64,000 nucleotides of DNA from Anaerolineae bacterium (GTDB lineage: Bacteria; Chloroflexota; Anaerolineae; Aggregatilineales; Phototrophicaceae). A program made the translations under genes and the position numbers. This document shows positions 15,965 through 27,582 of this stretch, in pieces (within the stretch, counting starts at the first letter, position 1; every line of letters begins with the position of its first letter). The stretch spans positions 1-64,000 of the forward strand of contig JALHOR010000017.1 of the NCBI GenBank assembly GCA_022842885.1, given 5' to 3'. Below the pieces are notes generated by a model. It ran no database searches. It was not told where the DNA came from and worked only from the letters and a program-made list of their open reading frames with translations.

Positions 15965-16056
15965 AAGTTATACCCCAATCGTCCGGTATTGCGCTCTGTC
16001 ATTTTCGATTACAATATCCAATGGAGATTGATCAACCCACATAGAATTTAGTGTTT

Positions 16057-17046
16057 ATGACCCGTTCTATCCGTGAATTGAATGAGTGCGTCCAGCGCGA
16101 AGCCGCTTTTGTAGAGCCATTGTTGACCGAAACCGGACGAATCATCGTGGGGCAAACGATGATGATTCAGCGAATGTTGGTGGCATTGCTCTCTGATGGG
16201 CATATCTTAATCGAAGGCGTGCCGGGGCTGGCGAAGACACTGGCAGTTCGCACGTTGTCATCCAGCATTAGCGCCCATTTCCAACGGATTCAGTTCACAC
16301 CGGATTTGCTGCCCGCCGATTTGATTGGCACACAAATTTATAATCCTCGTACAGGCACTTTTGCTGCCCGCCGTGGTCCCGTCTTTGCTAATATTGTGTT
16401 AGCAGATGAAATTAACCGCGCCCCGGCAAAAGTCCAATCGGCATTATTAGAAGCCATGGAAGAACGCCAAGTGACGTTAGGCGAAGAAACCTTTAAACTC
16501 GATGACCCGTTCATGGTTTTGGCAACCCAGAATCCCATCGAACAAGAAGGGACATATCCGCTGCCAGAAGCGCAATTAGACCGTTTCATGCTCAAAATTA
16601 TCATTGATTATCCCACTCGTGATGATGAACGTGAAATCATCAATCGTATGACCGGCGAAAAACCGGCAGCACCCCAACCTGTCATAGACGCCGCCGCAAT
16701 TCAAAAAGCCCGTAAAATCATTCACGAGATTTATGTGGATGATAAAATTAAAGAGTATGTGTTAGATATTGTGTTTGCCACGCGCCAACCTGCCAAAAAT
16801 GGCATGAAACGCCTGCAAACGCTCATCGAAACGGGGGCATCGCCGCGTGCGACCATTTGGCTCATCAAAGCCGCCAAAGCCAATGCCTTTTTAAGCGGGC
16901 GTGGTTATGTGACGCCCGATGATATTAAGTTGCTTGCGCCGGATGTGCTGCGACATCGCATCATCACCAGTTTTGAAGCGCAGGCAGAAGGCATCACAGG
17001 CGATAAAATTATTGATGTGATTCTGAGCAAGGTAGAAGTGCCTTGA
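16057..17046 (+). CDS. moxR: MoxR-family AAA+ ATPase
   Basis: A 329-residue AAA+ chaperone. Walker A is EGVPGLAKT, Walker B is IVLADEINRAPAKVQ, sensor 1 is LATQNPIEQEGTYPLPEAQ, and the C-terminal lid has the typical SPRATIWLIKAAKANAFL. The ATG at 16057 was preferred over a GTG two codons before. MoxR proteins act with VWA-domain proteins to insert metals or mature envelope or enzyme complexes, and they open operons of exactly this kind. The stop overlaps the DUF58 ATG (TGATG). Confidence 0.95.
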   Translation: MTRSIRELNECVQREAAFVEPLLTETGRIIVGQTMMIQRMLVALLSDGHILIEGVPGLAKTLAVRTLSSSISAHFQRIQFTPDLLPADLIGTQIYNPRTGTFAARRGPVFANIVLADEINRAPAKVQSALLEAMEERQVTLGEETFKLDDPFMVLATQNPIEQEGTYPLPEAQLDRFMLKIIIDYPTRDDEREIINRMTGEKPAAPQPVIDAAAIQKARKIIHEIYVDDKIKEYVLDIVFATRQPAKNGMKRLQTLIETGASPRATIWLIKAAKANAFLSGRGYVTPDDIKLLAPDVLRHRIITSFEAQAEGITGDKIIDVILSKVEVP

Positions 17047-17930
17047 TGTTGACGCCGGATGTACTCCGCCGGATTCGCCGGATTGAATTTAAAACGCGCC
17101 GTTTGGTCATCAATGCTTTTGCCGGGGCATATCATTCGGTCTATAAAGGCAGAGGGCTGTCGTTTGCAGCGGTGCGTCCCTATGTGCCGGGCGATGATGT
17201 GCGCTCCATTGATTGGAAAGTGACGGCTCGTACCGGCGAACCCTTCATCCGACAGCATGTCGAAGAGCGCGAACTGACGGTCATGATTGTGATAGATGGC
17301 AGTGCTTCGGTCTTGTTCGGCACGATTGACCGCCAAAAACGCGATTTTGCTGCTGAATTGGGTGCGGCATTGGCGTACATGGCAATCACCAATAATGACC
17401 GCGCTGGATTGCTGATTTTCAGCGATAAAGTGGAACATTATGTGCCGCCGCGCAAAGGGCGCAAACACGTTATGCGGCTGATACGCGATTTGCTCATAGT
17501 AGAGACATCCGGCAGCGGCACAGATTTAGCGCAGGCGCTTCGCACTTTAAATCGTGTTGTGCCATCGGGTGCAATTATTTTTCTGCTTTCCGATTTTTTG
17601 CTATCGGGCGAGAGTTATTATCAGGATTTAGCCATCACTGCCCGCCACCATGAACTCAATGTCGTCATTTTGAGCGACCCTTTGGAGGAACAATTTCCTG
17701 AAGTGGGCATGATGGGCTTGCGCGATGCTGAAACCGGTGAAGTGCAATGGGTAGATACTACTTCTCCTGCTTGGCAGCAGCAGTTTCGGCAGCAGCAGCA
17801 GCAGTTCCAGCAAGACCGTGATACTATCCTAAAACGGGCTGGGGTTGCTCGCATTGATATTCCGCCCGATGGCGATTATGCTCGCGCTTTGAATTTGTTT
17901 TTCCGTCAGCAGTTGGAACGCCGCCGATGA
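17046..17930 (+). CDS. DUF58-domain protein (VWA-like), MoxR partner
   Basis: The 294-residue protein carries the DUF58 signature PYVPGDDVRSIDWKVTAR and, after it, a von Willebrand A-like core (VMIVIDGSASVLFG) with a DxSxS-type metal site. A Gln-rich stretch near residue 245 precedes the C-terminus. No membrane helix is seen. These proteins are usual partners of MoxR ATPases. The ATG overlaps the moxR stop, and its own stop overlaps the next gene by ATGA, so translation is coupled throughout. Confidence 0.93.
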   Translation: MLTPDVLRRIRRIEFKTRRLVINAFAGAYHSVYKGRGLSFAAVRPYVPGDDVRSIDWKVTARTGEPFIRQHVEERELTVMIVIDGSASVLFGTIDRQKRDFAAELGAALAYMAITNNDRAGLLIFSDKVEHYVPPRKGRKHVMRLIRDLLIVETSGSGTDLAQALRTLNRVVPSGAIIFLLSDFLLSGESYYQDLAITARHHELNVVILSDPLEEQFPEVGMMGLRDAETGEVQWVDTTSPAWQQQFRQQQQQFQQDRDTILKRAGVARIDIPPDGDYARALNLFFRQQLERRR

Positions 17931-18976
17931 ATCTGTTAGCTAGTTCAGATGTTATTTCTGTTGAAAGGCGATTTCTCGTAATCGCTGGAATAAGATACCG
18001 TAGGGACACGATATATCGTGTCCTTACAAAAGCATATTATCTTTTATTTGCTTTTAGTATGCCGTTTTTATGGGTCGGAATGCCCATTTACGCCCAAAAT
18101 GCGACGGCGACGCCGTTTGTGCCGCCCATTAATGCCGGGCAAGCCGATATTGTGAATGCCTATTTAACTGCCGCCAACCTATCGCCGTTGGTAGGGGACA
18201 TCATTGAAGTTCACATTATCATTGAAGCGCCGCCCGGTGTGCAGTTAGCCAATTTGCCTGAATTTCCTGCCGATGATATTTTTGCTGTTTTAGAGACAGG
18301 TGACATCACAAGGGAAACGCGGGCAGATGGAGTGACAGTATATTCCCGCATTTTGGAGATGATTATTTGGCTGCCGGGGCAGCACTTAACCCCAGAAATG
18401 CCTGTAACGTTCACATATAACGGCGTCACAATGAGCAATCCGGTGAAATCACTTTTTTTCACTGTGCCATCGGTGCTAGAAACTGCGCCAGACCGCAGCT
18501 TGCGCCCCTTTGCACCCCCTATCGAATTGCCGTATATCTCGCCATTGTGGTTAATTCCGTTGATTGTGGTGCTTGGGAGCATCGTGTTCATCCTGAGGCG
18601 CGTTTTGCGCCGCCGGAATGGGCGCATTGCGGGCATTATTGGCGGCACACCTGCTCAAATTGCGATTGCTGAATTGGAAGACTTAAAGACCCAATCACTG
18701 CCTGTATCTACCATCTATTTATTGGTGGCTGATAAACTCCGAGGTTATTTGCAAGTGGTTCACCAAATTAATGCCGCCGAATTGACCACAGCCGAACTTA
18801 ACCAACTGCTGAAACAACACAATTCTTTCCCAGAACCTTTGCGAAAAGGTTTGCAGCAAGTTTTGGAACAAGCCGATTTGGTCAAATTTGCCCGGTTTGA
18901 ACCCGAACCGGATGCTGGTGTACGATTGGTGAATTATGCGATTCGCTGGTTGCAGGCGATAGAAAAACAACCATGA
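17927..18976 (+). CDS. BatD-like membrane protein of the MoxR-Bat operon
   Basis: A 349-residue protein with an odd N-terminus: about 40 polar and basic residues precede what looks like the real signal or anchor (YYLLFAFSMPFLWVGM, about 42-58). An extracellular beta domain (about 75-190) is followed by a membrane helix near 205-225 (LWLIPLIVVLGSIVFIL), a basic stretch and a helical cytoplasmic part. The arrangement is like the short BatD or DUF4381-type proteins of such operons. The 20-bp palindrome at 18004-18023 falls in the extra N-terminal part, so that part may come from an inserted repeat. Overlaps of ATGA on both sides keep it in the operon. Confidence 0.75.
   Translation: MNLLASSDVISVERRFLVIAGIRYRRDTIYRVLTKAYYLLFAFSMPFLWVGMPIYAQNATATPFVPPINAGQADIVNAYLTAANLSPLVGDIIEVHIIIEAPPGVQLANLPEFPADDIFAVLETGDITRETRADGVTVYSRILEMIIWLPGQHLTPEMPVTFTYNGVTMSNPVKSLFFTVPSVLETAPDRSLRPFAPPIELPYISPLWLIPLIVVLGSIVFILRRVLRRRNGRIAGIIGGTPAQIAIAELEDLKTQSLPVSTIYLLVADKLRGYLQVVHQINAAELTTAELNQLLKQHNSFPEPLRKGLQQVLEQADLVKFARFEPEPDAGVRLVNYAIRWLQAIEKQP
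18004..18023. repeat. Perfect 20-bp palindrome inside the BatD-like reading frame
   Basis: GGACACGATATATCGTGTCC is its own reverse complement and sits in a TAGG...CCTTAC context like the small dispersed palindromic repeats (REP/MITE-like) found in many bacteria, usually between genes. Here it codes for residues near RRDTIYRV. One copy only is seen in this window. Confidence 0.75.
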
Positions 18977-19929
18977 TTGAATTTCGTTTTGCGTATCCGC
19001 ATGTTTTTTTGCTGCTGCTTCCGGCAGCACTCTTTTTATTCCAACAGTGGCGTGGACGCTGGCAGTCAGCACCAGTAGTCATGCGTTATTCCGATACGCG
19101 CTTGTTGAGTGGTTTGCCTGTGGGGCTGCGCGTGCAGTTGCGCCGTTTGCCGGATGTATTGCGATTGCTAGTCTGGTTGCTGTTGGTAGCGGCACTAGCA
19201 CGCCCCCAAGCCGGGAATGCGCGGGAAGTGCTACGTGGGGCAGGGATTGATATGGCTTTCGCGCTGGATATTTCTGCCAGTATGGGAACACAAGATTTTG
19301 CACCCTTCAGTCGTTTGGATGCAGCAAAAATGATGCTGGATAATTTTATCACTCAGCGCGAATTTGACCGCATTGGGCTGATTGTGTTTGCTGAAGAGGC
19401 GTTTTATCAAGCACCCCCCACACTGGATTATGCGATTTTGCGGCGCTTATTGGCAGAGGTACAACTGGCAGAAGCGATTGGCAATAGCGGCAAAACGGCG
19501 ATTGGGGTAGGCATTGCGGCTGCCGCCAATATGCTGCGCCAGAGCCAAGCCACCAGCAAAGCAGTTATTTTGCTGACCGATGGCACAAATAATACTGGCA
19601 GCGTTGACCCGCTATCCGCAGCACAAGCCGCCAGTGCCTTTGATATTCGCATTTATACAATCGGGATGGGCAATCCGGCAGCCGGCGAAATAGATGAGGT
19701 GATGCTGCAATCGGTGGCGGCGGTGAGCAATGGGCGCTATTTTAATGCGCTGCAATTGCCAGATTTAGAAGCCATTTTTGCCGAAATTGACCGCCTAGAA
19801 CGCTCCGAAGTCGAGCGCCAATTGAACGTGCGTTGGCAAGAACAAGCGTATCTGTGGCTGATAGTGGCATTGATTTTGTTGCTGCTTGAACGATTTTTAC
19901 GACTAACCCTATTCCAGACAATCCCATGA
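18973..19929 (+). CDS. batA: BatA-type VWA membrane protein
   Basis: The 318-residue protein has N-terminal membrane helices (about 8-24 and 58-76), a VWA domain with the metal site DISASMG (DxSxS) and LLTDGTNNTG, and a final helix near 292-312. This is the BatA/aerotolerance layout. It probably sits with the VWA domain in the periplasm or outside. Together with BatB it forms the conserved pair of the operon; Bat proteins were named for aerotolerance in Bacteroides, but their exact substrate is not known. ATGA overlaps join it to both neighbours. Confidence 0.92.
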   Translation: MIEFRFAYPHVFLLLLPAALFLFQQWRGRWQSAPVVMRYSDTRLLSGLPVGLRVQLRRLPDVLRLLVWLLLVAALARPQAGNAREVLRGAGIDMAFALDISASMGTQDFAPFSRLDAAKMMLDNFITQREFDRIGLIVFAEEAFYQAPPTLDYAILRRLLAEVQLAEAIGNSGKTAIGVGIAAAANMLRQSQATSKAVILLTDGTNNTGSVDPLSAAQAASAFDIRIYTIGMGNPAAGEIDEVMLQSVAAVSNGRYFNALQLPDLEAIFAEIDRLERSEVERQLNVRWQEQAYLWLIVALILLLLERFLRLTLFQTIP

Positions 19930-20933
19930 CGTTTCTTAATGCGCCATTTTTGGCATTCCTTGTGCTTATCCCGTTGTTCGCGCTGTTTTTCCTGTGGCGC
20001 AACTTGGTGCGGGCGATGGTCGTGCGCCGTATTGGCGATACCGAGTTGGTACAAAAATTGCTGTCCCAAATCAGCCCGGCACGCCGCCGTTGGAAACAAA
20101 TTTTGTGGTTATTGACACTCTTAGCCTTAATTCTGGCAGTGGCGCGTCCGGTATGGGGGATTGAACTCCAAAAAATTGAAAAACAAGGCGTTGCTGTCGT
20201 TTTCGTGGTGGATGTCAGTTTGAGTATGGCAGCCCAAGATATTGTGCCATCGCGTTTAGAACGCGCCCGATTAGATATACAAGACTTGTTGGCATCGCTG
20301 GAAGGCAACGATGCTGGCATTATCTTGTTCGCCGGGCAAGCCTTTCAATATATGCCGCTGACTTATGATATGCAAGCCGCCCAAGTATTTGTCCGCAGTA
20401 TCGCCCTGAATGCTGTGCCAACGCCGGGAACAGCCATCGGTGAGGCGCTTGATATGGCGCTGCAAGTTTTGGATGATGTAGCTGGCGATAACCGGGTCAT
20501 TGTGCTGCTATCCGATGGGGAAAATCATGAAGGCAACCCATTGAATGCGGCGCGTGCCGCAAGTGAGGCAGGGATTGTTATCCATACATTGGGCTATGGC
20601 ACGATTACAGGGTCAACGATTCCTATTTTTGATGATGCTGGCACATTGATAGACTACAAAAAAGACTCGCAGGGAACATTAGTCCAGACCGTATTAGATG
20701 AAATTGTGCTGCGAACACTGGCAGAAACAACCGGTGGTAGCTATCAACCGATTGTGGATGGCACGGAAATTGCGAATGTTATTGCTGCGATTCAGGCATT
20801 GCAACCGGGTGATTTGGGCGAAGAATTAATCGATCGTCCTGTTGAACAGTTTGGGATTTTTGTGGCATTGGCATTATTGGCGCTCTCAGTCGAGATGTTA
20901 TTGCCAGAAACACGGCGGGAGCGTGACTCATGA
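19926..20933 (+). CDS. batB: BatB-type VWA membrane protein
   Basis: The 335-residue protein repeats the BatA layout: helices near 5-22 and 58-76, a VWA domain with DVSLSMAAQDI (DxSxS) and LLSDGENHEG, and a C-terminal helix near 308-325. The long insert around GYGTITGSTIPIFDDAG is typical of BatB. It probably pairs with BatA at the membrane. It overlaps batA and batC by ATGA. Confidence 0.92.
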   Translation: MTFLNAPFLAFLVLIPLFALFFLWRNLVRAMVVRRIGDTELVQKLLSQISPARRRWKQILWLLTLLALILAVARPVWGIELQKIEKQGVAVVFVVDVSLSMAAQDIVPSRLERARLDIQDLLASLEGNDAGIILFAGQAFQYMPLTYDMQAAQVFVRSIALNAVPTPGTAIGEALDMALQVLDDVAGDNRVIVLLSDGENHEGNPLNAARAASEAGIVIHTLGYGTITGSTIPIFDDAGTLIDYKKDSQGTLVQTVLDEIVLRTLAETTGGSYQPIVDGTEIANVIAAIQALQPGDLGEELIDRPVEQFGIFVALALLALSVEMLLPETRRERDS

Positions 20934-21697
20934 AACATTTCATTGTGATGGGCTTGCTATTTTTATTAGGATTGGCGGCGTGCAGCACTAACCCGGCAGA
21001 GCGCAATAATGCAGGCAATAGTTTTGTCGCGCAAGGGAATTATCCGGCTGCTGTCAGTGCTTATCAATCGGCATTAGTCGCTGACCCAGACAATGCTCAA
21101 TTGTATTTTAATGTGGCGAATGCTTATGCACGGGCAGGCGACAATGAATCGGCTATCACGGCATATCAACAGGCGGTTGAGCGCGGTGATGCGGAATTAG
21201 CGGCGTTGGCACACTATAATTTGGGGAATCTCTTTTTTGAACAGCAGCGATTTAACGAAGCCGTAGCCGCCTATCAGCAATCGCTGTTGTTGATGCCAGA
21301 GCGCGAAGATACCCGGTTTAATTTAGAATTGGCATTGCTTTACATCGAAAAACCAACGCCCACACCCTTTGAACAAAAGACCGAACCCGACACTCAGCAA
21401 GCCAATCCATCGGTGACGCCCACGCCAAATCCCGGTGATTTAAATGAACCGACGCCCACACCAACACCGCCGGGCGGGGCATTACCCGAAGGTTCAACGC
21501 CCGATGGTGGCATGGCAGGGACGCAAGAAGGCGATTTTAGTGCTTCACCCGTGCCGCGTAATAGCGAAAATGACCTGACTGTAGAAGATGCTCGCCGAAT
21601 TCTTGACCCGATAGATGTTGAAAAACCCGGTGTGGGCGGTGGAATGCCAGACATCCTCGTGACCCCCGCGACACCGCCATCTGGACGAGATTGGTAA
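20930..21697 (+). CDS. batC: BatC-type TPR lipoprotein
   Basis: The 255-residue protein starts with a lipoprotein signal (MKHFIVMGLLFLLGLAAC) with lipobox Cys18. Three TPR repeats cover about residues 25-135 (AQGNYPAAVSAYQSALVADP, YFNVANAYARAGDNESAI, HYNLGNLFFEQQRFNEAV). A Pro/Thr-rich disordered tail follows, ending in a short conserved-looking segment (DLTVEDARRILDPIDVEKP). TPRs give protein-protein contacts, so it probably scaffolds the VWA proteins. It overlaps batD (TAATG). Confidence 0.9.
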   Translation: MKHFIVMGLLFLLGLAACSTNPAERNNAGNSFVAQGNYPAAVSAYQSALVADPDNAQLYFNVANAYARAGDNESAITAYQQAVERGDAELAALAHYNLGNLFFEQQRFNEAVAAYQQSLLLMPEREDTRFNLELALLYIEKPTPTPFEQKTEPDTQQANPSVTPTPNPGDLNEPTPTPTPPGGALPEGSTPDGGMAGTQEGDFSASPVPRNSENDLTVEDARRILDPIDVEKPGVGGGMPDILVTPATPPSGRDW

Positions 21698-23085
21698 TGA
21701 TGCCGAGTTATCACCCACCATCACCTGCTATGTGTTTGAGATTAATAAGCGCAAAATATTTGTTTGTGCTTGTGGTTGTGTTGTTTGTTTTTGTGCAGAT
21801 AATACCACTGGATGCCCAAGATTCGGGCAGTAGTTTTCTGGATGTCACAATAGATAGCCTCACACCCTATGTTGGGCAGCCGACTATTTATACTTGGCAG
21901 TTATTTTTGCCAGCGGGTATGAATGCTGAGTCCGCGCAAATTACACTGCCACCATTTACCGGATTTGGGCAAGAAAATTTACCTGCTGGCGATGTGCAAT
22001 TGCAAACCGTCAATGGACAATCTATGCAGGTGGTTCAGCGTCAAATCGTATTGTATCCGCTGCAAACCGGGACATTCACGATTGAAGCATTGCAAATTTT
22101 ACTCCCGGAAACACCGTTTCAATCGGCAGTGCCATTATCTTCCCCACCTTTCGCCGTCAATGTCTTACCGATGCCGCCGAATGCGCCGGTTTATTTCCAG
22201 AACGCCATCGGGCAATTTGATGTGGCGGCGGCGCTTAATGTGACTTCTATCGCGGTTGGGCAACCGGTGATTTTGACAATGACGATAACTGGCACAGGCA
22301 ATATTCAACAAGTGCTGCGCCCAAAAATGGTGCTACCGGAATTTTGGCGCATATTTGAACAAGATAACCCTGTGCAACCTGCGAGTCCGGTCTTTGGGTC
22401 ACGAGTATTTGAATGGCAACTTATCCCCGCCCAAGCCGGTATTCATGTGATTCCGGCGCTTGAATTTGGTTTCTTGAATCCGCAAACAGGCAGTTACGAA
22501 ACGCGCACGACAACACCGCTACCTATTGAAGTGCTGGCTGCTGACAATCCCACAACGAGTCCACCCATATCAGCCGATGTAACCCAAACAACCCACTCTC
22601 AGCCTGATATTATGCTGAAACCTTTGCCGGAGAATATCGCGTCAAGAAGCACGAATTTTGATATTTGGGGCTTGGTATTATGGCTGCTGCCACCACTTGG
22701 TGCGGGCTTGGTAGCATTCATGTCTTCAGCGCGTTCTCGGCGCAATCCTAGCCCAAAACCAGAACGACTCAGTGGCAGCCGCGCCTTACAACAAGCACAG
22801 ATGCAATTAAAAACGGCATTATCCCAATCGCCAAAAGATGCGTCTGTGATGATTGCTGATATTATATTGACGTATCTTAGCCGCAAAACTGGGCAATCTA
22901 TCCAGCGCGAGACGCTTAAAAATGCGCTTTCCGGTTTGTCGCTACCTGTGCAAAAAACACTTTTGGACTGCCTAGACCATGCCGATGCCGGACGTTATGC
23001 CCCGGTCAGTGAACAGGACATCAAATTATTGGTGCGCGATACGCTGCGGATATTGCTGGAGATAGATAAAACGTGGCAAGCCTGA
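21697..23085 (+). CDS. batD: BatD-type membrane protein
   Basis: The 462-residue protein starts at the ATG that overlaps the batC stop. A signal or anchor helix is at about 20-37 (YLFVLVVVLFVFVQIIP). The ectodomain contains two or more Ig-like beta domains with the BatD hallmarks (VDVTIDSLTPYVGQPTIYTWQL-like opening and SIAVGQPVILTMTITGTGNI). A helix near 328-348 (WGLVLWLLPPLGAGLVAFM) is followed by a helical cytoplasmic part. It is the largest component of the putative Bat complex. The stop lies inside the batE start region, overlapping by 13 bp. Confidence 0.88.
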   Translation: MMPSYHPPSPAMCLRLISAKYLFVLVVVLFVFVQIIPLDAQDSGSSFLDVTIDSLTPYVGQPTIYTWQLFLPAGMNAESAQITLPPFTGFGQENLPAGDVQLQTVNGQSMQVVQRQIVLYPLQTGTFTIEALQILLPETPFQSAVPLSSPPFAVNVLPMPPNAPVYFQNAIGQFDVAAALNVTSIAVGQPVILTMTITGTGNIQQVLRPKMVLPEFWRIFEQDNPVQPASPVFGSRVFEWQLIPAQAGIHVIPALEFGFLNPQTGSYETRTTTPLPIEVLAADNPTTSPPISADVTQTTHSQPDIMLKPLPENIASRSTNFDIWGLVLWLLPPLGAGLVAFMSSARSRRNPSPKPERLSGSRALQQAQMQLKTALSQSPKDASVMIADIILTYLSRKTGQSIQRETLKNALSGLSLPVQKTLLDCLDHADAGRYAPVSEQDIKLLVRDTLRILLEIDKTWQA

Positions 23086-23831
23086 TACGTCCTTTCGCTA
23101 TCTTTTTGTTATGCGTGTTGCTGGTGTCGGCTACTGCGGCACAGTTTGATTTTGAATCGGCGGCAACGGCGTATAATAATGGCGATTTTGCCACTGCTAT
23201 TTCGATTTACGACTCTGCGCTTGCGGCGGGGGTGCGCGATGGTGGTGTCTTCTTTAATCTGGCAACCGCATATTATGCCAGTGGTGATAATGCCCGTGCT
23301 TTGCTGAATTATTTGCGTGCCGCTGACATTGCCCCACGCGAAAACGATACTCAATTGCAAATAGCTCGCCTCCGCGCCCGCCGTGAAGATGGCAATATGC
23401 AGGAATCAGATGCGCTGGTATTGTTCGGGTCGCTGACCAATGCTTGGCTAACCTATGATGAACTCAATGTTTTGACATGGTGTGTTTGGACAAGTTTTTT
23501 TGTTGTATGGGCAATTTTTTTTCGGCAGAAACATGGACGACAGCGATTGCGAAGCGTTTTATTTGTGAATGCAAGTGTGATGGCTGTGTTCTTGTTACTG
23601 TTATTTTCGCGCTGGTATGTGGGGGCAACGATGCCACCTGCGGTTGTTATTGAATCATCGGTACAGGTGATGAATGGTGCGGGTGATAACTATTTGCCTT
23701 TGTTTCGCGTATTTGCTGCCGCCGAGGTTCGCATTTTGGAGGAGCGTAACGATTGGTTGCGTGTCATTTTGCCGGATGGTCGGCAAGGATGGCTACGTGC
23801 CAGCAATATCGAAAAGGTTATAGTTCCGTAA
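23073..23831 (+). CDS. batE: BatE-like protein: TPR and SH3-type domains
   Basis: The 252-residue protein starts at a GTG inside batD (13-bp overlap). It has a signal peptide (FAIFLLCVLLVSATAA), TPR repeats at about 25-100 (AATAYNNGDFATAISIYDSA, VFFNLATAYYASGDNARALL), two membrane helices at about 125-145 and 160-180, and a bacterial SH3 domain at about 190-250 (SVQVMNGAGDNY, RILEERNDWLRVILPDGRQG). That is the BatE plan. It ends the operon; the next genes run on the other strand. Confidence 0.88.
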   Translation: MASLIRPFAIFLLCVLLVSATAAQFDFESAATAYNNGDFATAISIYDSALAAGVRDGGVFFNLATAYYASGDNARALLNYLRAADIAPRENDTQLQIARLRARREDGNMQESDALVLFGSLTNAWLTYDELNVLTWCVWTSFFVVWAIFFRQKHGRQRLRSVLFVNASVMAVFLLLLFSRWYVGATMPPAVVIESSVQVMNGAGDNYLPLFRVFAAAEVRILEERNDWLRVILPDGRQGWLRASNIEKVIVP

Positions 23832-23905: not shown

Positions 23906-24748
23906 TTATACCCCTTTGAGCAACTCAGAAACATCTTCTGGATAACGGGCAACCGGAACACCTATATTGGTGAGTGCCGCCGCACGACTGGCAGCATATT
24001 TTGCTTCTGTGGGTGATTCAATCAGGCTGATAGATTGCCCTGGAATGAGTGCCACCACCGGGCGGGTCATCCGATTTGAGATATAAGAAGTCACTTCATG
24101 AATCGCATCATACTGGCTTGGTTCGCTGATAAGCACAATTTTTTCGGTATTCAGGTCATTCTCAAACAATTCGAGAATATCCTTAAAATTCATGCCGATA
24201 ATGGCATTACTCCCAATTCCCACTAATGCCGATTGCCCCATATTGGCTTGTGTCAGTGCCAATGTCGTTTCGTAAAGGAGGGCGCTGCTGCTGGAAACAA
24301 TCCCAATATTGCCGGGTTTTGCAACCATAGGTGGGATAATGCCAACGCTCGTCACGCCCGGAATTAAAATACCCGGGCTATTAGGTCCTACTAAACGAAT
24401 ATTTTTTCTTTGCAATAATTCCCGTGTGCGTAACATATCATGCAGCGGAATATGTTCGGTGATGCAAATAATGAGCTTAATCCCGGCATCGGCAGCTTCA
24501 ATAATCGCATCGGCAGCGAGGGGGGCTGGTACGGTAATCAGGCTCACCGTTGCCCCGGTCGCATCCATCGCACGGCGCACAGTATCAAAAACGGGCTTGC
24601 CCTCAAACCAATCGCCACCTTTGCCGGGTGTTACCCCGCCGACGATGACGGTGCCATATTCCAGCATCTGCCGCGTATGAAATGACCCATAACGCTCAGT
24701 GATACCTTGTATAAGAATTTGCGAGTGTTTATCCAGCAAAATCGCCAT
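23906..24748 (-). CDS. Succinyl-CoA ligase alpha-like protein with altered catalytic loops
   Basis: The 280-residue protein follows SucD along its whole length: ILLDKHSQILIQGITERYGSFH, VGGVTPGKGG, LITVPAPLAADAI, IKLIICITEHIP and VGPNSPG. But the loop that in SucD carries the phospho-histidine (GHAGAI) reads IESPTEAKYAAS here, with no His. The conserved Cys of NCPG is Ser, SRSGTL is SSSSAL and GIGGDP is GIGSNA. The Rossmann CoA-binding half is well kept. It therefore may bind CoA but is unlikely to run the normal phospho-His reaction. The ATG at 24748 overlaps the stop of the beta-like gene (TGATG). Confidence 0.85.
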   Translation of the reverse strand: MAILLDKHSQILIQGITERYGSFHTRQMLEYGTVIVGGVTPGKGGDWFEGKPVFDTVRRAMDATGATVSLITVPAPLAADAIIEAADAGIKLIICITEHIPLHDMLRTRELLQRKNIRLVGPNSPGILIPGVTSVGIIPPMVAKPGNIGIVSSSSALLYETTLALTQANMGQSALVGIGSNAIIGMNFKDILELFENDLNTEKIVLISEPSQYDAIHEVTSYISNRMTRPVVALIPGQSISLIESPTEAKYAASRAAALTNIGVPVARYPEDVSELLKGV

Positions 24749-25911
24749 CAAGCATAACTCCTAGTCGCCATTGCGATCGCTTGATGTATTGCCGCAGATA
24801 ATGTTTTTGCTACGATTAAATTGGGAATATCGGCGGCTGCCAACATGTGCTGGGCTTCCTCAGCACCACTGCCTTGCAAGCGAATAACGGTAGGAATAGT
24901 GGGCTTTAGCTCATGCCATGTGTGCAAAATGGCGCCTGCCAGCAAATCGGCTTCCACTAAGCCATCAAAAATATTAACCAGCCCGACTTGTACGGAGGGG
25001 TGTGCCATAATCAAGCGCAATCCGGCGGCAATTTCTTCAGGGGAGGCGCTGCTGCCAGCATCCACAATGCAGGCAGGATGAACACTGGTTTCCTCACCAT
25101 AATGATGCAGCATATCGCGGATGGTTAATGCCATGCCCGCCCCATTGACCAAACAGCCAATTTGACCCTCAAATGACTGATAGGCAACCTCTGTATGCCG
25201 CGCTTGTGCTTGGAGCGTTGTTTCATAACTACTATCGTACATCGCGGCAAGCTGTGGTTGGCGATAGAGAGCGTGCGGGTCAATATGCATTTTGCCATCT
25301 ACTGCCAAGAGATAGCCTTCACGGGTGATGACCAGGGGATTAATTTCAATTTTTTCAGCATCGTTATGAACATAACATTGGTATAAATGATGAATAATTT
25401 CGACAAAAGAGCGCCATTGCGAATGCGGAAAATCCAAGTCACTGGCGATTTTATTGGCTTGATATAAGTGTAAACCTGTCACCGGGTTGATATATTCACG
25501 ACTAAAAATATCAGAGTTATCCCAGGTCATGGTATGCGGGTCTTTGCCGCCTTCCAGCGATGCCAACAGCAGCGGACGCCCGGCAGTATAGTCGGTGATA
25601 ATCGTCACATAAATCGCCTGTTGAATGTGCGCTTTGGCTTCTACCAGAATTTGTCGCACAGGCTGATTTTCAAGCTGATCGCTTAACATGCGGCGGGCAA
25701 CATCTCGCGCCCCCGCCGGGGTATGTGCGATTTTCATGTTGATACCGGGTAATCGGCTGCTGTTAAGGGATTGTGCTTTTAGCACCACATCGCCACCCAA
25801 TTCAACAGCTATACGATAGGCATCATCGGGCGTGCTAATCACGTCGCCTTCCGGCACGGGGATATGCGCCTGTCGCAGCAGAAATTTCATTTGATATTCA
25901 TAAAGCCGCAA
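24748..25911 (-). CDS. Succinyl-CoA ligase beta-like protein with altered ATP-grasp loops
   Basis: The 387-residue protein starts at a TTG backed by a strong AGGAGGT seven bases upstream. It follows SucC: MRLYEYQMKFLLRQAHIPVPEG, ILVEAKAHIQQAIYVTIITD, KIEINPLVIT (metal Glu/Asn kept), LVNGAGMALTIRD. But the glycine-rich loop HAGGRGKAGG is SLNSSRLPG, the DVGGGA loop is DAGSSA, and NIFGGI is NIFDGL. It is paired with the alpha-like gene, which has matching losses, so the pair has probably evolved a new role, perhaps a CoA or acyl-CoA sensor. Plain succinyl-CoA ligase annotation would be misleading. Confidence 0.85.
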   Translation of the reverse strand: MRLYEYQMKFLLRQAHIPVPEGDVISTPDDAYRIAVELGGDVVLKAQSLNSSRLPGINMKIAHTPAGARDVARRMLSDQLENQPVRQILVEAKAHIQQAIYVTIITDYTAGRPLLLASLEGGKDPHTMTWDNSDIFSREYINPVTGLHLYQANKIASDLDFPHSQWRSFVEIIHHLYQCYVHNDAEKIEINPLVITREGYLLAVDGKMHIDPHALYRQPQLAAMYDSSYETTLQAQARHTEVAYQSFEGQIGCLVNGAGMALTIRDMLHHYGEETSVHPACIVDAGSSASPEEIAAGLRLIMAHPSVQVGLVNIFDGLVEADLLAGAILHTWHELKPTIPTVIRLQGSGAEEAQHMLAAADIPNLIVAKTLSAAIHQAIAMATRSYA

Positions 25912-25982
25912 GCGTTTTACCTCCTGATAATAAGCTAAAGTTTTCTAGTATATTGCGATTTTGCAGTTCATAAGTACCTTAT

Positions 25983-27239
25983 CTAATCTCCTGTTATAGT
26001 GGGTATATTCCAAACTTTAAGAATGTGATCCCACCAGGTCAATAATTTACTACCGTCTTTATGAAGCTTGAAACCAGTCCTCACAGGGAATCTAGCATCT
26101 ACAGTAGATAAATAAAATAATTGTTGATTTTGATCTACATCCCAGATAACTACATTATAAGAATAATTGAGAATCAATTGGTTAAAGCCCTCTCGCCAAC
26201 TCATAAAATACACTGTTTGCTGTAAGGGCGCTATAGATATGATTTTGCTTAATTTTATGTCCCAAACAAAACTCGATTCAAGACAATCATTCTGACAATC
26301 AAGTGGCATGGTAAATGCTAATGCTAGATAAGTACCCGTTGAATTCCACGCGACTCGCCTGATTCTTATATCATCAAATTGCCCATTACTGATTAATACT
26401 TGATCGATAGTATTATAAATATAGAATCCATTCTGAGAGTTTGAAAAAACGATTGATCCATCCACAGACCAGCTAACGGGGTATTCATAAGACGAAATGG
26501 CAAATAATTTTTCCTGTGTGTCAATATTCCAGATAGTGAGTTCATCCGCCTCTACGAGAATACGATTATCTTGCTGATTAGTATGATATCGTTTAATCTC
26601 TCCACCGGGCGTAAATTCTGTTAGTAACTCGCCGGAAGTAGAATCATAGATGTGAATTTTTCTATATGTTTGATCAACAGCAATAATCTGTGCCTCATCT
26701 GTACTCCAACTCCCGTAATTACTGGCAAATTCCAATAATTCCTGCTCTGTTCCAACATCCCAAAGATTTAAGGTGTTAGTATGATAATCGCTCCATAAAA
26801 GTTTTTCACTACTACCACTCCATAGCACATCAAAGGGTTCGATATTTGATATTTCGAACAGAAGTTCAAAGTCTTCTGTCGAGAATATACGCAAGAAACC
26901 TAATTCTGACCCTAGCGATGACCAGACCACAATCCACCTACTATTAGGTGAAAATGCAAACTGGATATATTCACCTTTGCCAAGATTGGCAATAAGTCTC
27001 CCTGAATTTGTATCAAAAACCTGCACAAAGACAGTTCGCGGGGATGCTTGGAACTCTTCTACTACTGCTACAAGGCAGGTTGCATCAGGGCACCACTCAA
27101 CCGGACCAAAAAGATTGCCTATTTCAATTTCAATCGAAGAAGAAGGATATAACACTTGTGGAATTTGTTGTTGAGCAAGGCTGGTGGGAATGTAAAAAAG
27201 CAATATCCAATTAAAGAGATAACGGCTTATCTTGCTCAT
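25983..27239 (-). CDS. Secreted WD40-like beta-propeller protein
   Basis: The start is the ATG at 27239 (MSKISRYLFNWILLFYIPTSLAQ), which gives a clean signal peptide and does not overlap the upstream DUF503 gene; a longer frame to 27326 would. The 418-residue product has about six repeated blades with WD-like ends (LNLWDVGTEQ, LTIWNIDTQE, VVIWDVDQNQ, LKVWNIPTIT). It probably acts as an extracellular scaffold. The base composition is plainly more A+T-rich than the neighbours, which suggests acquisition from elsewhere. It follows the DUF503 gene by 49 bases. Confidence 0.8.
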   Translation of the reverse strand: MSKISRYLFNWILLFYIPTSLAQQQIPQVLYPSSSIEIEIGNLFGPVEWCPDATCLVAVVEEFQASPRTVFVQVFDTNSGRLIANLGKGEYIQFAFSPNSRWIVVWSSLGSELGFLRIFSTEDFELLFEISNIEPFDVLWSGSSEKLLWSDYHTNTLNLWDVGTEQELLEFASNYGSWSTDEAQIIAVDQTYRKIHIYDSTSGELLTEFTPGGEIKRYHTNQQDNRILVEADELTIWNIDTQEKLFAISSYEYPVSWSVDGSIVFSNSQNGFYIYNTIDQVLISNGQFDDIRIRRVAWNSTGTYLALAFTMPLDCQNDCLESSFVWDIKLSKIISIAPLQQTVYFMSWREGFNQLILNYSYNVVIWDVDQNQQLFYLSTVDARFPVRTGFKLHKDGSKLLTWWDHILKVWNIPTITGD

Positions 27240-27288
27240 ACAACATCTACCCTTATAAAGTCTATCCCACCACTTTAGCGCGTTTTTC

Positions 27289-27582
27289 TCACAACACTTC
27301 CGTGTTATGCCGCGTGATGATGGCATCAGGAAAATGTTCTTCTAGCCATTGCATCACCGTTTGCAGCATTTGCCGTGTATGCGGAGCAGAATTGCTCACG
27401 GAAGCGACAGCGATTTTTGCCGATTGCCACTTATCCAAGTGTGCCACTTCCGCCGCAGACACATTAAACGTATTGCGAATCCGCGCCAACATGGATTTGA
27501 TGATGCCGCGTTTTTCCTTGAGCGATGTCACGCCCGGTAAATACAATTCAATTTCACACAGTCCTACAATCGTATCCGACAT
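27289..27582 (-). CDS. ylxP: DUF503 (YlxP-like) protein
   Basis: The 97-residue protein has the DUF503 pattern: GLCEIELYLPGVTSLKEKR, IIKSMLARIRNTFNVSAAEV, IAVASVSNSAPHTRQMLQ. Length is normal. In many bacteria this gene sits near infB and rbfA and is probably RNA- or ribosome-related, but its function is not settled. Here it is separated from those genes. Confidence 0.9.
   Translation of the reverse strand: MSDTIVGLCEIELYLPGVTSLKEKRGIIKSMLARIRNTFNVSAAEVAHLDKWQSAKIAVASVSNSAPHTRQMLQTVMQWLEEHFPDAIITRHNTEVL

Follow-up and report, generated by a model that had tools for sequence, protein, structure and literature searches.

What becomes of a succinyl-CoA synthetase (SCS) that keeps its length, fold and gene order but lacks conserved catalytic motifs? 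The question is raised by two genes in the window, by which we mean the whole stretch of 64,000 nucleotides analysed here, at the start of contig JALHOR010000017.1 of an Anaerolineae bacterium. The first-pass annotation, made from the sequence alone, had described the two products as alignable end to end with SucC and SucD and their genes as an overlapping pair. Profile searches bear this out, in that the matches of alpha to TIGR01019 and of beta to TIGR01016 both span nearly the whole length of the protein, and the best matches in the PDB are the E. coli SCS chains SucD (for alpha, E=2e-70) and SucC (for beta, E=1e-60). Both family scores stay under the curated cut-offs (286.6 bits against 353.2 for alpha; 306.4 against 375.6 for beta), as does the score of alpha against PRK05678 (287.3 against 336). 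Pfam assigns ATP-grasp_2 and Ligase_CoA domains to beta, and CoA_binding and Succ_CoA_lig domains to alpha; PF02629, the CoA-binding Rossmann domain, is recognised in alpha well above its cut-off (95.8 against 22.3 bits). Two other profiles remain far from their family cut-offs, namely that of FdrA/AllF with the window alpha (PRK06091, 39.3 against 433 bits) and that of the ADP-forming acetate--CoA ligases (TIGR02717, 66.7 against 567 bits). The reading frames overlap as the first-pass annotation had stated, and a putative ribosome-binding site precedes the beta gene (see table).

Table. Features of the native sucCD locus in the window, with the second SucCD of the same genome (last line)
Feature	Position	Strand	Remarks
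MoxR / vWA / Bat-type gene cluster	16051..23831	+	Synteny marker beside native sucCD in intact and degenerate genomes alike
SucD-like alpha subunit gene	23906..24751	-	281 aa
Beta/alpha reading-frame overlap	24748..24751	-	4 nt, from ORF coordinates; layout permitting translational coupling
SucC-like beta subunit gene	24748..25911	-	387 aa, TTG start
Shine-Dalgarno-like AGGAGGT	25919..25925	-	7 nt 5' of the beta TTG start; putative function
WD40/beta-propeller-like gene	25983..27326	-	Between DUF503 and sucC; overlaps the DUF503 frame; GC3 0.33
DUF503 gene	27289..27582	-	Immediately 5' of native sucC in those relatives that have it at this locus
Type-2 SucCD	G000 contig C145:4883-6938		Only other SucCD in the genome

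The nearest kin of the window pair are the native, or type-1, SucCD of the same order, with identities of 50-55% for alpha and about 45% for beta. The native locus lies between MoxR/Bat genes and a LysM gene, with DUF503 upstream in genomes that keep it. Such neighbours flank intact native SucCD in four genomes (G006, G012, G015 and G016) and degenerate pairs in nine (G001, G004, G007, G013, G014, G018, G078, G081 and G085), synteny being judged on whichever sides of the locus the contig covered. The WD40/beta-propeller-like gene has no counterpart at the corresponding position in those relatives that were compared and looks like a later insertion. We therefore find that the window pair is the order's native, vertically inherited SucCD at its ancestral locus, and the possibility that it is an exotic paralogue was rejected on grounds of positional orthology. 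It shares with native type-1 SucCD the fold, the gene order and the CoA-binding domain; in contrast to them, it has neither the phosphohistidine loop, nor an intact power-helix phosphate site, nor the nucleotide glycine loop.

Alignment with intact copies locates these losses. In alpha, the phosphohistidine loop GHAGAI falls in a 10-column alignment gap, where the window reads GQSI----------SLIES, and further changes convert NCPG to NSPG (C124S), SRSGTL to SSSSAL, GIGGDP to GIGSNA, GEIGG to SEPSQ and ITGxxG to ITERYG. In beta, GGRGKAGG has become SSRLPGIN, DIGGGA has become DAGSSA and NIFGGITR has become NIFDGLVE. The absence of the histidine, the replacement of the NCPG cysteine by serine, the SSSSAL motif and the loss of the beta glycine loops had all been reported in the first-pass annotation, together with matched changes in both subunits; the alignments agree on every point and place the matched loss at the phosphoryl-transfer site. 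Other parts of the active site, on which the first-pass annotation was silent, are retained. With the numbering of the intact relative G006, the window beta keeps Lys45, Arg53, Glu189, Asn191 and Asp205 of the ATP-grasp fold, so that the ATP-grasp lysine and metal ligands (Lys45, Glu189, Asn191, Asp205) are present four out of four, as well as the substrate residues Asn256, Gly257 and Gly259, while alpha keeps Glu209.

The preserved sites of the window alpha are unevenly distributed. Of the conserved sites, 50 of 55 survive in the Rossmann domain and 48 of 86 in the remainder (Fisher p=5e-6), whereas intact copies keep 95% and 98%, respectively. We looked for this bias in four altered copies and found it in the window only; it is absent in G001, G014 and G078. 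This would mean either that these copies have retained different roles or that the inference applies to the window alone. Within the same domain, the change G18E, which recurs in G078 and G081, lies in the CoA phosphate-binding loop and, judged by its position, could weaken CoA binding. In an AlphaFold model (pLDDT 78.6), alpha is similar to the alpha chains of SCS (TM 0.72-0.76); confidence is low around the missing motifs, as it is in the beta model around the glycine loop that was lost.

The genome (6.0 Mb) is a fragmented draft of 252 contigs, 93.7% complete, and it contains one other SucCD, which we call type-2. The first-pass annotation had proposed that the genome be searched for a canonical sucCD, and this pair answers the description: it scores above both curated cut-offs (401.8 and 434.6 bits) and all of its scored catalytic sites are intact. 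It belongs to the same superfamily as the window pair, with which it shares only 42% (alpha) and 28% (beta) identity. Presumably, it supplies the cell's succinyl-CoA ligase, and its presence means that the window pair need not be one. We note that a long WD40-repeat protein (L075:1850-4687, minus strand) and a protein resembling Type ISP restriction enzymes and carrying a DUF559 domain (L075:9917-11884, minus strand) are encoded near type-2 sucCD, and that the genome of the window pair holds four citrate-synthase-family genes (G000 contigs C21, C35, C51 and C14).

A survey of 154 genomes of the order, many of them draft MAGs, places the pair in a wider pattern. Type-2 SucCD, defined by at least 68% alpha identity, occurs in 28 of the 154, with a partial match in G140; 20 of the 28 also hold a native copy and eight show no native alpha, which may reflect incompleteness. 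Fifteen alpha and 19 beta sites were scored; alpha sites 19 and 43 vary among intact copies and were not counted, which leaves 13 alpha sites. Where type-2 SucCD is absent from the genome, each of the 65 native copies sampled is intact at all 19 beta sites and at every covered one of the 13 alpha sites, two of them being contig-edge fragments that do not cover alpha G18 and one genus contributing many copies to an uneven sample. With no variation in these columns among the 65 copies, the motif losses are not due to chance. Beside type-2 SucCD, all 19 native beta copies have lost between 2 and 16 beta sites, a count that leaves out G036, where a second SucCD accompanies a partial alpha that lies at the edge of a contig and looks intact, with no beta visible. 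Beta identity to an intact reference is 29-51% beside type-2 SucCD, against 59-75% in the others.

The extent and the place of the damage vary between these copies. Six of them (G042, G048, G053, G143, G144 and G149) carry only two or three beta changes and, from their sequences, may be active; losses are severe in G001, G007, G013, G014, G078, G079, G081, G085 and the window, and the native beta of G140 looks frameshifted. The N-terminal ATP-grasp part of beta is lost and the alpha histidine kept in G001, G007, G014, G079 and G085, and largely also in G013. In the SucC of the first five (L067, L069, L070, L087 and L088), most of the N-terminal 100 ATP-grasp residues are missing. The phosphohistidine is lost in the window only and kept in the 65 native-only copies and in all other degenerate ones. 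Alpha C124 has become serine in 12 of 19 copies, with at least five origins and no other replacement. The first-pass annotation had asked whether relatives conserve the same substitutions; as a set they do not, most relatives being intact and the degenerate ones having broken different parts. Outside the order, a Chloroflexota MAG (USDV_maxbin.034, locus L209), found irrespective of any second SucCD, has KSPG, SRAGTL and GIGSDP in alpha (NCPG changed to KSPG, S154A, G180S) and INGRGKS and DIGKD in beta, keeps the histidine and the ATP ligands, and scores above the SucC cut-off (386 bits). A search of its genome for a second SucCD found none. By its motifs it is a possible active variant without the NCPG cysteine. 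Altered though apparently a sole copy, it indicates that mild motif change is possible without a second SucCD, and consequently the rule is stated for the order only.

The losses arose more than once. The best alpha tree (INDEPENDENCE; 61 rows, IQ-TREE, LG+C20) has six changes of state, at least four of which are forced by its starred branches. A single clade of degenerate copies was rejected by the AU test (p=0.0008). The window alpha groups with G001, of the same genus, and with G014, in a region where long branches meet and the inner order is unsure. The association between a second SucCD and loss in the native copy is perfect in raw counts and corresponds to four to six independent pairs (sign test p=0.125 for four).

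We consider it probable, if by some way short of assured, that the window pair is a native SucCD released by redundancy, which has lost ligase catalysis and is kept as a heteromeric non-ligase pseudoenzyme, with the Rossmann domain as the best-preserved part of alpha. This explanation takes up what was observed or computed above, from homology, locus and site loss to the second SucCD and the parallel losses in relatives, along with the reading-frame constraint described below. The canonical type-2 SucCD would have made the native pair redundant, and ligase catalysis would have been lost after or during that step. We infer that alpha and beta may still assemble into a complex, inactive as a ligase, that would bind CoA or acyl-CoA and possibly a Mg-nucleotide in the beta ATP-grasp fold. 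Phosphate would not be carried between the two sites, and no phosphohistidine cycle would run; any role of the complex would come from binding, as a sensor, a buffer or a regulator of a partner. PDB entry 9a6e, an integrative GatB-SucD model by its title, is a pointer to possible non-catalytic partners of SucD. The first-pass annotation had suggested a new function such as a CoA sensor or a different ligase. The first part of this suggestion holds up better, since the Rossmann domain is what alpha has preserved and a CoA-binding, non-ligase role fits this; for the window pair another ligase is an unlikely answer, as the histidine and the phosphate site on which the phosphohistidine route depends are lost.

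That the pair is functionless, a redundant gene in slow decay whose frames are still open through a recent loss or mere chance, we regard as unlikely. Many active-site residues are gone, the eight type-2 genomes without native alpha indicate that the locus is dispensable, and the frameshifted appearance of the G140 beta and the breakage of different parts in different lineages also fit decay. Against this stand the reading frames themselves. The first-pass annotation had named frameshifts as the mark of a decaying pair; there are none, and both frames are open over 668 codons, whereas neutral decay by at least 30% gave stops in 200 of 200 simulations, so that such a stretch was never left free of stops at 70% identity or less. 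The simulation and the divergence by codon position were used because dS between the window and G001 is saturated. Divergence from G001 at codon positions 1, 2 and 3 is 0.37, 0.24 and 0.70 in alpha and 0.43, 0.33 and 0.66 in beta, such that third positions show some two to three times the divergence of second positions, and first and second positions are far more conserved than third. GC3 is ordinary, the pair still has its ribosome site and the overlap of its subunit genes, and the marks of a pseudogene (stops, frameshifts, a lost codon-position pattern) are absent from the window pair.

Selection can be measured directly in G078 and G081, two close species whose beta lacks Lys45, Glu189, Asn191 and Asp205. 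Their alpha genes give dN 0.033, dS 0.514 and dN/dS 0.065, and their beta genes dN 0.040, dS 0.414 and dN/dS 0.097, with no gaps or stops in either; intact pairs at like dS (e.g., G012/G029) have dN/dS of about 0.03-0.04. This dead-looking pair is therefore under purifying selection, somewhat weaker than that on the active enzyme. The selection argument for the pseudoenzyme reading leans on these two species, a lineage separate from that of the window. A scan of the genomes with the window alpha alone as query found nothing closely related to the window pair, and a second genome scan, with the alignment as query, returned mainly intact Chloroflexota copies.

It is also conceivable, and to us rather improbable, that the pair has acquired new catalysis without ATP coupling, for instance phosphorolysis, hydrolysis or transfer on acyl-CoA or acyl-phosphate, by analogy with FdrA/AllF. 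In that family an SCS-like fold is employed without the ATP-grasp ligase cycle, and its members are thought to work without the phosphohistidine ligase cycle. AllFGH (formerly FdrA, YlbE and YlbF) is an oxamic transcarbamylase (PMC11326118), and the window alpha does have a weak match to the FdrA profile. The five relatives in which SucC has lost its N-terminal ATP-grasp part, and also G013, keep the alpha histidine and Glu209, which would fit chemistry persisting at the CoA site; from their sequences, the SucC and phosphohistidine-keeping SucD pairs of those five are candidates for ATP-independent chemistry. The recurrent choice of serine at C124 points the same way. The window, however, is the reverse of these relatives, having lost the phosphate site (histidine loop, SRSGTL and NIFGG) and kept the ATP-grasp ligands. 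In addition, FdrA/AllF is a separate and much more distant family of different architecture, with 39 bits for the window alpha against 287 for SucD.

We hold it very improbable that the pair has remained an acyl-CoA ligase whose substrate or phosphoryl route has changed. The five ATP-grasp residues retained in beta speak for it, the mildly altered native copies of the six relatives may be active, and the C123S mutant of E. coli SCS was crystallised as an enzyme (PDB 2nu7), but the window alpha has no histidine loop, both power-helix motifs are broken and the nucleotide site has lost its glycine loop. A sequencing or assembly artefact, for which only the draft state of the genome speaks, is scarcely credible: relatives with an intact histidine, which the first-pass annotation had named as the sign of an error, do exist, but an error is refuted by some 80 losses at invariant sites, together with two open frames and conserved synteny.

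Returning to the reading of the native pair as a non-ligase pseudoenzyme, the relatives might extend it to a class of SCS-like, non-ligase CoA-binding complexes, formed from native SucCD freed by redundancy with at least four origins in the order, the window alone being without the phosphohistidine; on the sequences at hand, we see the case for such a class as evenly balanced. Pseudoenzymes are well known in general (PMC5106787, PMC10211241), and the window pair resembles them as a homologue of an active enzyme in which conserved catalytic motifs are missing. No SCS pseudoenzyme is described in the literature that we searched, which was covered in part.

In sum, a native central enzyme has lost catalytic sites in several lineages, and within the order it has done so only where another enzyme with its function is present. 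Purifying selection nevertheless acts on at least one severe case, which makes these lineages a natural experiment on non-catalytic roles of succinyl-CoA synthetase. For annotators and metabolic modellers, a full-length, syntenic sucCD is not necessarily an enzyme of the TCA cycle.
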